Assembly (NCBI RefSeq): GCF_004784475.1
Contig: NZ_SRRT01000007.1
Location: 124,001-188,000 of the forward strand
Direction: 5' to 3'
Source: Streptomyces bauhiniae
GTDB taxonomy: Bacteria > Actinomycetota > Actinomycetes > Streptomycetales > Streptomycetaceae
DNA length: 64,000 nt
In this document: piece by piece, positions 52,301 to 54,904 of the stretch
Position numbering within the stretch: position 1 is the first letter of the stretch
Layout: each line of letters opens with the position of its first letter
Notes under the pieces: model-generated
Seen by the model: the letters and a program-made list of their open reading frames with translations, nothing else
Database searches by the model: none
Told to the model about the DNA's origin: nothing
Program-made: the position numbers and the translations under genes

Positions 52301-52609
52301 ACCTGGGGCGGGGTCGTCGGCATCACCGGCCGGCACCGGCTCGGGGACGGCACGGTGATCACGGTGCCGATGAACGCGGCCTGGTTCGACGAGTACGGCT
52401 GGTCCGTGGAGAACCGGGGCGTCACGCCGGACCTGGAGGCGCTGCGCACCCCGCTGGACTGGGCCGAGGGCCGCTACGCCCAGCTCGACGACGCGGTGGA
52501 GCTGGCGCTCGACATGCTGGAGACGACCCCGGCCGCGGTGCCGCCCGACTACAGCGACGTACCGGACCGCTCGCGGCCGAAGCTGCCGCCGCGCGAGGAG
52601 GGGGCATAG
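49343..52609 (+). CDS. Tricorn-protease homologue (S41 family)
   Basis: This cytoplasmic protein of 1088 residues follows the tricorn layout: N-terminal six- and seven-bladed beta-propellers (HPRFSPDGKQIAF, AFSPDGAWLTW, VFTSDGRYLAFLSW), then a PDZ domain (about 770-850) and a C-terminal S41 peptidase domain. Catalytic candidates are the His of GTSHAYV and the Ser of EATSSDGDM. Tricorn degrades oligopeptides downstream of the proteasome. GTG 49343 is used because the nearby ATG is closed by a stop. Length fits the family. Confidence 0.9.
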   Translation: MSYLRLPHISDDLLCFVAEDDLWLAPLDEPGRPWRLTADRTKAGHPRFSPDGKQIAFTSWRSLVPEIHLVDVAGGPARQLTYWGSADTQVCGWTPPDQHGKSDILAVASHGQPFSYFTWAHKVGTDGSPGGRLPWGPVGDIQVADTAGEHQTLLLTGTPPHEPASWKRYRGGATGRLWLQGQRLLEDIDGQLSSPMFVAGRIAFLSDHEGIGNLYSVAPDGTDLRRHTDHDAFYARHAATDGERVVYQCAGDIWIVDDLSPTGTPRKLDIDLGGAAPGRRPYQVPAAHNVDGLSVDETGRASAVTVRGSLYWLTHRDGPSRTIADTPGVRVRLPEMLGSTGQLAYVTDAEGDDAIAIAQLPRASGGREPRLLGEGRLGRVLELVSDPEGERLAVASHDGRLLLIDVAEDEEGRQPGTVTELIRSDNGPVRDLAFSPDGAWLTWSHPGIGRSLRKIKLARIKDRLIVDVTNGRFEDENPVFTSDGRYLAFLSWRGFDPVYDVHTGDLSFPLGCRPYLVPLNSATPSPFALNPEGRPAAGGLDPLEAGSGEGGTVTVEVEGLENRVTPFPVMSSKYSALRPVAGGGLVWLRWPISGALGETFVNPADISGRPTLEHFNLSKAKKTELVGHLDWFEVSGDGTRLVVVDEGDLRAVPATEPGDSDSTVWIDLRRILHEVDPAAEWRGAYAEGGRLIRDYFWDPGMCGIDWPAILEQYRPLVERVTSPDEFADLMREVLGELGTSHAYVTPARRNEGPPHYQRRQGLLGANFVCRDGAWMVARILDGDSSDSRARSPLAGTGIREGSVLTHVNGRPVDPVTGPYPLLAGSGGTTVDLTFTPPPGEPGPARRVAVVPLLDDRSLRYQDWVAKRREVVRELSGGKCGYLHIPDLGGSGWAQFNRDLRLEVSRPALIVDVRGNAGGHISELVIEKLTRTILGWDLTRDAEAVSYASNAPRGPVVALADEATSSDGDMITAAFKLLDLGPVVGQRTWGGVVGITGRHRLGDGTVITVPMNAAWFDEYGWSVENRGVTPDLEALRTPLDWAEGRYAQLDDAVELALDMLETTPAAVPPDYSDVPDRSRPKLPPREEGA

Positions 52610-52650
52610 AAAAGGGCGGGACTTCCCGCCACTTACAACGTATAGCGCAA

Positions 52651-52675
52651 GGGGGGCCTTGCGGCAAGGCCCCCC
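52651..52675 (+). promoter_or_regulatory. Inverted repeat matching the rifamycin-associated element (RAE)
   Basis: An 11-bp perfect stem (52651-52661 with 52665-52675, CGG loop) contains the core CTTGCGGCAAGGCCCC, which matches the RAE described upstream of rifamycin-inducible genes, as I recall it. It lies just downstream of a TATAGC-like -10 (52641-52646) and 46 bp before helR. It could also serve as the terminator of the tricorn gene. Confidence 0.75.
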
Positions 52676-52720
52676 TCATGCCGCAGAATCGCTCGCCGAG
52701 CCCAGAACCTGCGGAAATGA

Positions 52721-54904
52721 GTGATCCACTACATGTGTGCGCTGCTGTCCGAGCGTGAGCCCGCGCCGGAGTCCCGCGCGTTCGACCTTCCCGACCGGCT
52801 CGCCGCCAAGGCCGACCCGGTACTGATCGCCGCCGACGAGCGGCACTTCGCGGAGATCTCCGCGAGCCTGGAGCAGACCGTCGCCGAGCTGTCCGACACC
52901 CTGGACGCCCTGCGCCGGGCACCCGGCGGGGCCGGCCGGGAGGCGCTGGAACGGGACCTGGAGATCCACCGGCTGACCGCCCGGCTGCGCGCCCTGCGCC
53001 GCTTCGGCCTCGACCTGTGCCTCGGCCACATCGTGCACGACGGTGATCCCGAGCCGGTCTACATCGGCCGCCTGGGCCTCACCGACCCCACCGGCCGCCG
53101 GCTGCTGATCGACTGGCGCTCCCCCGCCGCCGAGCCGTTCTTCGCCGCGACCCACGCCCACCCGATGGGCCTGGCCAGCCGCCGCCGCTACCGCTGGACG
53201 CGCGGCCGGATCACCGACTATTGGGACGAGGTGTTCACCGCCGACGGCCTGGAGCACCACGCGGCGCTGGACGACCAGTCGGCCTTCATCGCCACCCTCG
53301 GCACCAACCGCTCGGAGCGGATGCGGGACGTGCTGGCCACCATCCAGGCCGACCAGGACGCGATCATCCGGGCCTCCTCGCGCGGCGCCCTCGTGGTGGA
53401 CGGCGGCCCCGGCACCGGCAAGACCGTCGTCGCCCTGCACCGCTCCGCCTACCTCCTCCACTCCGACCCGCGCCTCGGACACCGCCGGGGCGGCGTCCTG
53501 TTCGTCGGCCCGCACCAGCCCTACCTCAACTACGTCGCCGACGTGCTGCCGAGCCTCGGCGAGGAGGGGGTCCAGACCTGCACCGTGCGGGACCTGGTGG
53601 CCGAGGGCGCCACGGCGGGCGTCGAGACCGACCCCGAGGTAGCCCGGCTGAAGTCCTCGGCGGACCTGGTGAAGGGCATCGAGAAGGCGGTGCGCTTCTA
53701 CGAGACCCCGCCCACCGACCCCCTGACCGTCAGCACCCCGTGGGGCGAGCTGCACCTGACCGCCGCCGACTGGGCCGAGGCGTTCGAGGCGGCGGAGGCG
53801 GGCGTCCCGCACAACGAGGCCCGCGACCTGATCTGGGAGGCGCTCGTCACGATCCTCCGCGACCAGTTCGACAAGGAGGTCCCGCCCACGCTCTTCCGCC
53901 GGGCCCTGGCCTCCGACGGCGAGCTGACCGGCACCCTCCGCCGCGCCTGGCCCCTGCTGGAGGCGGCCGACCTGGTCGGTGACCTGTGGACCGTCCCGGC
54001 GTACCTGCGGATGTGCGCCCCCTGGCTCTCCCCCGACGAGGTACGCCTGCTGCGCCGTACCGACCCGCAGGCGTGGACGGTGTCCGACCTGCCCCTGCTG
54101 GACGCGGCCCGGCAGCGGCTCGGGGACCCGGAGACCTCGCGGAAGAAGCGCCGCCAGGCCGCCACGGTCGCCGTCGAGCGGGAGCGGATGTCCGCCGTCA
54201 TCGACAGCGTGATCGCGGCCGACCCGGACGGCGAGGGCGCGGTGACCATGCTGCACGGGCAGGACCTCAAGGACAGCCTGGTCGACGAGGGCGCGCTGCC
54301 CGCCATCGAGGCGGACGCGCTGGCCGGTCCGTTCGCGCACATCGTGGTGGACGAGGCCCAGGAGCTGACCGACGCCGAGTGGCAGATGCTGCTCCTGCGC
54401 TGCCCCTCGCGCAGCTTCACCATCGTGGGCGACCGCGCCCAGGCCCGGCACGGCTTCACCGAGTCCTGGCGGGAACGGCTCACGCGGGCCGGTCTCGGCC
54501 GGGTGGAGGTGGCCTCGCTGAGCATCAACTACCGCACCCCCGAAGAGGTGATGGCCGAGGCGGAGCCGGTGATCCGCGCCGCCCTCCCGGACGCCAACGT
54601 GCCCACCTCGGTACGCGCGAACGGCATCCCGGTCACCTACGGTCCGGTCTCCGACCTGGACGCCGTACTGCACGACTGGCTGGCCGAGCACGCCGAGGGG
54701 ACCGCCTGTGTCATCGGCGATCCCGCGTTCAAGGAGCGGCCCCGCGTCCGCTCGCTCACCCCGGAGCTGGCGAAGGGGCTGGAGTTCGACCTGGTCGTGC
54801 TGGTGGACCCGGCCGCCTTCGGCGAGGGCATCGAGGGCGCGGTGGACCGGTACGTGGCGATGACCCGCGCGACCCAGCGGTTGGTCGTACTGGGCGCCCG
54901 ATAG
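52721..54904 (+). CDS. helR: HelR/HelD-type RNA polymerase helicase-like ATPase, rifamycin tolerance
   Basis: This 727-residue superfamily 1 protein has Walker A GGPGTGKT (228-235), an N-terminal coiled coil (about 35-95), the HelD-type LLIDWRSPAAEPF segment, Walker B VVDEAQEL, QARHG and SINYRTPEEV helicase motifs and a C-terminal YVAMTRATQRLVVL. HelR removes rifamycin-stalled RNA polymerase from DNA and displaces the drug in S. venezuelae and M. abscessus. The RAE-like repeat upstream supports HelR rather than a general UvrD helicase. GTG 52721 is used; an in-frame ATG at 52733 is possible. Confidence 0.88.
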   Translation: MIHYMCALLSEREPAPESRAFDLPDRLAAKADPVLIAADERHFAEISASLEQTVAELSDTLDALRRAPGGAGREALERDLEIHRLTARLRALRRFGLDLCLGHIVHDGDPEPVYIGRLGLTDPTGRRLLIDWRSPAAEPFFAATHAHPMGLASRRRYRWTRGRITDYWDEVFTADGLEHHAALDDQSAFIATLGTNRSERMRDVLATIQADQDAIIRASSRGALVVDGGPGTGKTVVALHRSAYLLHSDPRLGHRRGGVLFVGPHQPYLNYVADVLPSLGEEGVQTCTVRDLVAEGATAGVETDPEVARLKSSADLVKGIEKAVRFYETPPTDPLTVSTPWGELHLTAADWAEAFEAAEAGVPHNEARDLIWEALVTILRDQFDKEVPPTLFRRALASDGELTGTLRRAWPLLEAADLVGDLWTVPAYLRMCAPWLSPDEVRLLRRTDPQAWTVSDLPLLDAARQRLGDPETSRKKRRQAATVAVERERMSAVIDSVIAADPDGEGAVTMLHGQDLKDSLVDEGALPAIEADALAGPFAHIVVDEAQELTDAEWQMLLLRCPSRSFTIVGDRAQARHGFTESWRERLTRAGLGRVEVASLSINYRTPEEVMAEAEPVIRAALPDANVPTSVRANGIPVTYGPVSDLDAVLHDWLAEHAEGTACVIGDPAFKERPRVRSLTPELAKGLEFDLVVLVDPAAFGEGIEGAVDRYVAMTRATQRLVVLGAR

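Follow-up and report, generated by a model that had tools for sequence, protein, structure and literature searches.

Rifamycin-associated element and helR in Streptomyces bauhiniae

We analysed a 64,000-nucleotide stretch of the Streptomyces bauhiniae genome (RefSeq assembly GCF_004784475.1, contig NZ_SRRT01000007.1, positions 124,001 to 188,000; hereafter the window), in which positions 52610-54904 hold a rifamycin-associated element (RAE) followed by the gene of a HelR-class RNA polymerase rescue protein. The gene product scores 1270 bits against the curated HelR model NF041254 (cut-off 750), and its residues 56-720 align to the Mycobacterium smegmatis HelD structure 6yxu with 343 bits. Judged by these matches, the gene at 52733-54904 is helR, as an initial annotation of this DNA had proposed. 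As the likely start we chose ATG 52733, which shares its frame with GTG 52721, so that 52610-52732 is the leader of the gene. In M. smegmatis HelD, the primary-channel loop carries an acidic tip of Glu484 and Asp485 (PMC10719064; the articles cited in this work are drawn on in extract). This region is present in the alignment of the window's HelR, with Asp485 facing Asp and Glu484 facing Pro at a place where the local alignment is uncertain. In another genome (G433), the helR match (locus L098) contains one internal TAG.

The repeat consists of two 13-bp arms, 100% complementary around a 1-nt centre, and 40 bases separate it from the stop codon of the tricorn gene (52607-52609). It holds a 19-bp palindrome upstream of a rifamycin-resistance gene, and the initial annotation was right to call it an RAE lying about 40 bp past the tricorn stop. 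The published M. smegmatis arr oligo contains a repeat identical to its core (PMC7882622). We searched the whole genome (6.75 Mb, both strands) for exact and mismatched palindromes. Exact copies of the 19-mer GGGNCTTGCGGCAAGNCCC are found twice and nowhere else, ahead of helR and ahead of rox, which encodes a rifampin monooxygenase (NF033145, 815.7 bits, cut-off 800). With up to three mismatches, 31 matches were found on both strands against 108 for a reversed control, which is chance level. A profile of the whole module scored the helR and rox sites at 74.6 and 73.0 bits, the next scores being those of the same two sites read backwards (22.7 and 21.3) and then 14.9 and 14.2 bits. Since the exact search and the profile single out the same two sites, the RAE at helR is not a chance occurrence.

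That helR stands behind an RAE, as the initial annotation stated, is already known. The RAE genes reported for S. venezuelae are helR and rox, and in M. abscessus induction was lost upon deletion of half of the RAE (PMC10719064). Rifamycin inducibility of the window's helR may fairly be expected from these published relatives (PMC10719064, PMC8655204). When the helR and rox leaders of this genome are placed side by side, a conserved block appears on either side of the repeat, CCACTTnCAAnnTATAGCGCA on the left and GCAGAAT on the right.

Two divergent promoters predicted on one element

We read the right block as the predicted promoter driving helR, with the general layout TTGCNG, 19 bp, CANAAT, and the left block as a predicted promoter pointing away from helR, with the layout TTGCNG, 19 bp, TANNNT. 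Both were followed through several samples. A scan of 84,980 genomes for an RAE plus the right-hand -10 pattern, with the left side ignored, gave at least 121 matches, and the 118 with enough left flank were used (the listed sites); by record title all 118 are from Actinomycetota, covering some 40 genera by our count. In the genus sample, HelR scored above the cut-off in 69 of 101 genomes, and 68 leaders selected by protein were used, with one at a contig end omitted; an RAE lies within 700 nt in 41 of them. The mycobacterial sample comprised 60 genomes of one genus, 35 of them above the HelD cut-off, and 30 helD loci were searched up to 1.5 kb upstream (L266 has only 152 nt of upstream sequence). 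An RAE was found at 19 of these loci and none at the other 11. Finally, a search of 396 genomes from the phylum for exact palindromes gave 49 places in 34 genomes, against 8 for a reversed control pattern. For each of these 49 places we kept the orientation that fitted both boxes better, and their counts therefore lean towards the model; the listed sites, the genus helR leaders and the mycobacterial RAEs are free of that bias for the left box. The sites share descent, and their counts are therefore not independent events.

On the left, a minus-strand TANNNT stands at exactly 19 bp in 115 of the 118 listed sites, compared with 0-2 at each of 24 other offsets, and the three exceptions have spacers of 18 or 20 bp, shifts of a single base. 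The leftward -10 is likewise present in 40 of the 41 genus leaders with a direct RAE. In the other 27 genus loci, where helR is behind rgt (26) or rox (1), the RAE lies farther upstream and carries both boxes in every case (12/12 and 15/15), and both are found in 18 of the 19 mycobacterial RAEs. Among the exact phylum palindromes, 47 of 49 have the leftward -10 and 45 of 49 the rightward one. Two have neither; no known resistance class was found in the 1 kb beyond them, and they look like chance occurrences. Within the leftward element, the near-invariant bases are T at -12, A at -11 and T at -7, as a -10 element would need, and the GG pair at the predicted leftward start is also conserved, at about 1.6 bits each. 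A first reading of this -10 as TATAAG with a 17-bp spacer was dropped, as wider sampling fits TANNNT and 19 bp.

On the right, CANAAT was part of the search pattern behind the listed sites, so its conservation there proves nothing. In the samples selected by protein, [CT]ANNNT occupies the rightward -10 place in 40 of the 41 genus helR leaders with a direct RAE and in 18 of the 19 mycobacterial helD RAEs. The M. smegmatis arr transcript starts 31 bp before the GTG (PMC7882622). By our arithmetic on the oligo positions printed there, the RAE centre lies at -64 and CACAAT at -43 to -38, which puts the arr start at RAE centre +33, seven bases past the -10 and good to one base. We thus placed the predicted helR start near 52696. 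This is downstream of the repeat, and a downstream start would by itself carry no force against control by the RAE; it has already been published that the RAE overlaps the -35 box of a sense promoter downstream (PMC10719064).

With conserved boxes on both sides, the RAE core TTGC-N-GCAA reads as two back-to-back -35 boxes overlapping by 3 bases. Very probably, then, the RAE serves two divergent promoters as their common -35 region. This predicted anatomy is near-invariant before five known rifamycin-resistance classes, helR, rox, rph, rgt and arr. The initial annotation had suspected that induction works through transcription initiation, a hunch well placed in the light of this layout. Its proposed -10 box at 52641-52646, said to overlap the RAE, fared worse: it neither overlaps the repeat nor forms a rightward -10, and shares two bases with the minus-strand TACGTT. 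A rightward promoter using the left -10 is ruled out, since a rightward TANNNT occurs there in 0 of the 118 listed sites and one base off in 10, against 115 leftward.

A hairpin at the start of the predicted leftward RNA

In 52500-52800, the terminator scan returned a single terminator-like site, GGCGGG-AAGT-CCCGCC-CTTTTC on the minus strand, which begins at the predicted first base 52630 of the leftward RNA. It has the GC-rich stem and the following T-run of an intrinsic terminator. The initial annotation had suggested that one element may serve both as the terminator of tricorn and as the inducer site of helR. The terminator predicted here is instead a separate hairpin at 52615-52630 that would work leftward, and the RAE as tricorn terminator is ruled out, because no T-run follows it.

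Strict terminators left of the RAE point leftward in 41 of the 118 listed sites and rightward in 3, compared with an average of 4.7 in shuffles and 1 of 108 in a control region. Among the 41 genus leaders, 16 were leftward and none rightward. A looser hairpin score was reached in 90 of the 118 listed sites; on the mirrored right side the number was 12 of 118, and among shuffles the share was 17.5%. Strong 5' hairpins, followed by a 9-nt T-rich tract, were found in 59 sites (3 on the mirrored side), and 47 of the 59 have at least four T in the ten bases after the hairpin. The commonest place for perfect stems to begin is the predicted +1 (30 of 74). In a wide fold window, z fell below -2 in 43 of the listed sites on the left and in 4 on the right. 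The 59 strong hairpins comprise 48 kinds of stem sequence; the letters of the leftward RNA thus seem not to matter, with shape alone being kept. No known RNA family matched the leftward RNA, the one sub-threshold hit being taken as chance. The coordinates of all features are collected in Table 1.

Table 1 Features predicted in and around the RAE of the window
Feature	Position	Strand	Basis
T-run completing the leftward intrinsic terminator	52610-52613	-	Sequence, terminator scan; T-rich tract in relatives
5'-terminal hairpin of the leftward RNA, GGCGGG-AAGT-CCCGCC	52615-52630	-	Terminator scan; -12.4 kcal/mol, z -3.5
Predicted leftward RNA start, GG	52629-52630	-	Conserved GG; stems start here most often
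Leftward -10, TACGTT (read 52642-52637), 19-bp spacer	52637-52642	-	TANNNT conservation
RAE inverted repeat, AGGGGGGCCTTGC-G-GCAAGGCCCCCCT	52650-52676, centre 52663	none	Repeat search
Rightward -35, TTGCGG, inside the RAE	52659-52664	+	Conserved layout; fits M. smegmatis arr start (PMC7882622)
Leftward -35, TTGCCG, 3-bp overlap with the rightward -35	52662-52667	-	Sequence and conservation
Rightward -10, CAGAAT, 19-bp spacer	52684-52689	+	Conservation in genus helR leaders and mycobacterial helD RAEs
helR transcription start (predicted), near 52696, RAE centre +33	52695-52699	+	Homology to arr
helR, RNA polymerase rescue ATPase (class II HelD)	52733-54904	+	NF041254; open frame from GTG 52721

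A proposed polymerase-based model of rifamycin sensing

In B. subtilis, helD and pps are under a dual-promoter alarm, in which an antisense promoter is dominant without the drug and is silenced by drug-arrested polymerase, leading to induction; the helD antisense transcript ends at a nearby intrinsic terminator (PMC12802891). The layout at the RAE suggests a related scheme. The rightward promoter, with its -35 in the RAE, its -10 CAGAAT at 52684-52689 and its start at about 52696, would drive helR. The opposite promoter would use the same RAE to make a disposable transcript, roughly 20-35 nt long, that stops immediately at its own hairpin. Given that the two -35 boxes overlap, with about 66 bp between the starts, full occupancy of either promoter should exclude the other, and the backward promoter should dominate because its -10 is the better one (T rather than C at -12). 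It would keep polymerase busy and hold the helR promoter down. Rifampicin halts polymerase after two or three nucleotides (PMC12802891). A rifamycin would then end the backward idling and let the helR promoter fire, but to keep the drug-stalled polymerase from blocking that promoter, the scheme may need a second component on the palindrome, or a single idling polymerase that is captured and released locally. We give a probability of about one half to the reading that the backward self-terminating unit is a working part of a rifamycin sensor, as a divergent cousin of the Bacillus alarm. Its strictest version, in which the RAE is a fused -35 pair without any drug-binding regulator and the sensor is RNA polymerase idling on the self-terminating outward promoter, seems to us less likely than not.

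Several results weigh against the proposed sensor. In a kinetic sketch of the two promoters with invented rates, strict exclusion gave no induction at all (fold 1 or less) when both drew on one shared polymerase pool. Induction was about 7- to 130-fold with a trap by which the sense promoter is left open. With a captive idling polymerase it reached up to about 13-fold at a stay of 3000 s and fell below 1 at 60 s. Since pure exclusion yields no induction, the polymerase-only version needs an extra feature: either the stalled backward polymerase leaves the helR promoter partly free, or a palindrome-bound factor takes part. In Bacillus, cutting the 39-bp distance between the two promoters by 17 bp abolished induction (PMC12802891), so that the overlapping RAE pair cannot use an identical route. 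The layout also does not account for a further sense promoter of M. smegmatis helD, whose start precedes the RAE by about 20 bp (PMC10719064). The strict terminator itself is present in just 41 of the 118 listed sites, and in the wide-window test the asymmetry of T-runs is small, 23 leftward against 19 rightward. Lastly, the palindrome is conserved further than expected of promoters. GG/CC at ±7 and ±8 is kept in sites not selected for exact flanks, 18 of the 19 mycobacterial RAEs have all six flank bases, beyond the need of two -35 boxes, and complementary pairs are in excess at ±11 (53 against 39 expected) and ±12 (66 against 52) in the listed sites. The GG/CC flanks and the excess complementarity at ±11 and ±12 suit a bound dimer.

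Such a dimer is a credible possibility. A dimeric regulator that senses rifamycin or blocked transcription could bind the 19-bp palindrome and control both promoters, with the backward promoter being a decoy or a relic. Besides the flanks, the strong dyad speaks for it, as does the failure of plain exclusion in the toy kinetic model, and TTGC-N-GCAA resembles MarR-type operators. A regulator has also been suggested by the field (PMC10719064, PMC12802891). Yet this explanation leaves unaccounted for both the terminator and the invariance of the backward -10, which is like that of the palindrome itself, and each of the some 40 genera (by title) that hold the module would need the same regulator. 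The neighbouring genes offer few candidates. No regulator was found among the first right-hand genes at the 165 of 168 classified sites where these matched a query family. The left-hand genes, called with a crude open reading frame (ORF) caller and judged by eye, are mixed; two TetR-like and two AraC-like proteins among the 44 ORF candidates could be counted for a regulator, but no family appears more than twice and neither of these recurs.

The left element might instead be a protein-binding or structural site and no promoter at all, with the hairpin terminating whatever lies to the left, which we consider improbable. This idea would sit well with a hairpin that is not strictly conserved, but the conserved bases fall exactly at -12, -11 and -7 at a fixed spacing and are followed by a conserved GG start, the T-run is on the leftward side, and there is no common left-hand gene to terminate. 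Weakest is the notion, half-suggested in the initial annotation, that the RAE acts as an RNA hairpin (an attenuator or terminator of an upstream transcript): strong folding is predicted for the RNA form of the window's repeat (-24.5 kcal/mol), one published M. smegmatis helD sense start lies upstream of the RAE (PMC10719064), and G-T pairs exceed A-C pairs at ±11 to ±13, though conserved bases there can explain this, but arr starts downstream of its repeat, the T-run is missing after the repeat of the window, the ±6 pair is complementary in 25 of the 118 listed sites against 22.3 by chance, and the loop carries G in 101 of them but C in the other 17. We hold this role to be very improbable.

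Genes beside the module

We classified the genes behind 168 RAE sites, which contain the window's site twice, checking each family on one representative. HelR/HelD follows in 68, rox in 54, rph in 15, rgt in 15 and arr in 11, the rgt representative scoring 525 bits, below that model's cut-off of 800. The remaining sites precede an efflux-type transporter (1), a PPOX-class protein (1), an apparent decayed gene (1) and no match (2).

Within the genus, helR often follows rgt (26) or rox (1), and the RAE then heads the group (27 loci among L041-L105). These are apparently operons, in which drug inactivation and target rescue would be induced jointly. At L048 and L054, the match to rgt ahead of helR covers only a fragment.

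In Actinoplanes aureus, the module precedes an EmrB/OtrB-like efflux transporter (L141:229-1794, plus strand) whose best curated matches are below their cut-offs; it is possibly a new RAE-linked rifamycin efflux pump. In Micromonospora sicca (L235), a minus-strand RAE lies before a PPOX-class F420-dependent oxidoreductase-like protein, a single case with a match of 78 bits over a 70-residue piece (cut-off 85.6). Nocardia ninae (L240) has two RAEs about 1.56 kb apart. One of them precedes the apparent start of a decayed gene, and its leftward -10 spacing, off by one, is among the three exceptions in the 118 listed sites. At the mycobacterial helD loci L269 and L270, GAACATACGTTCGA precedes the RAE centre by about 55-72 bp in each case; it resembles a LexA (SOS) box, and these helD genes may answer to DNA damage too.

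Comparison with known systems

Rifamycins are first-line drugs, and the inducible resistance conferred by RAE genes limits them in Mycobacterium abscessus and shields many soil actinobacteria. The layout described here names the exact bases to mutate and the exact RNA to seek, it makes polymerase possible as the sensor, and its two boxes provide a simple rule for telling real RAEs from chance palindromes. In 2026, the RAE mechanism was still said to remain to be elucidated (PMC12802891) and the induction mechanism yet to be known (PMC13001253). In the literature extracts searched, the RAE is nowhere described as having a conserved backward promoter or terminator, though the PNAS 2014 and Mol Cell 2022 papers might do so. 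HelR and the RAE themselves are known; the RAE anatomy with a backward promoter looks new.

Symmetric bacterial promoters give divergent transcription, with bidirectional initiation from one element. Unlike these in general, the backward unit of the RAE is conserved across a phylum, often with its own terminator. The RAE-helR systems of S. venezuelae and M. abscessus reportedly go back to Surette 2022 and Hurst-Hess 2022. They share with the window a HelR-class protein, a 19-bp palindrome upstream and, as the genome's other RAE gene, rox, whereas the extracted descriptions (PMC10719064, PMC8655204) give sense promoters only. In the tandem promoters of M. smegmatis rpoBC, rifampicin likewise shifts the balance between two promoters (Zhu 2018, via PMC10719064), but these are the first and second promoters of one operon, and no RAE is mentioned there in the extract.

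The closest likeness is to the Bacillus helD/pps alarm, which also places a sense and an antisense promoter before helD or a rifamycin-resistance gene, with an antisense terminator nearby; for the RAE these parts are predicted from sequence. The Bacillus promoters are convergent with 39 bp between them (PMC12802891), whereas those of the RAE are divergent and share their -35 region, and we therefore do not file the RAE as a Bacillus-type alarm. If polymerase is indeed the sensor, the RAE would be a phylum-wide, regulator-free drug sensor, and the logic of the Bacillus alarm would have been invented twice, in opposite geometry.

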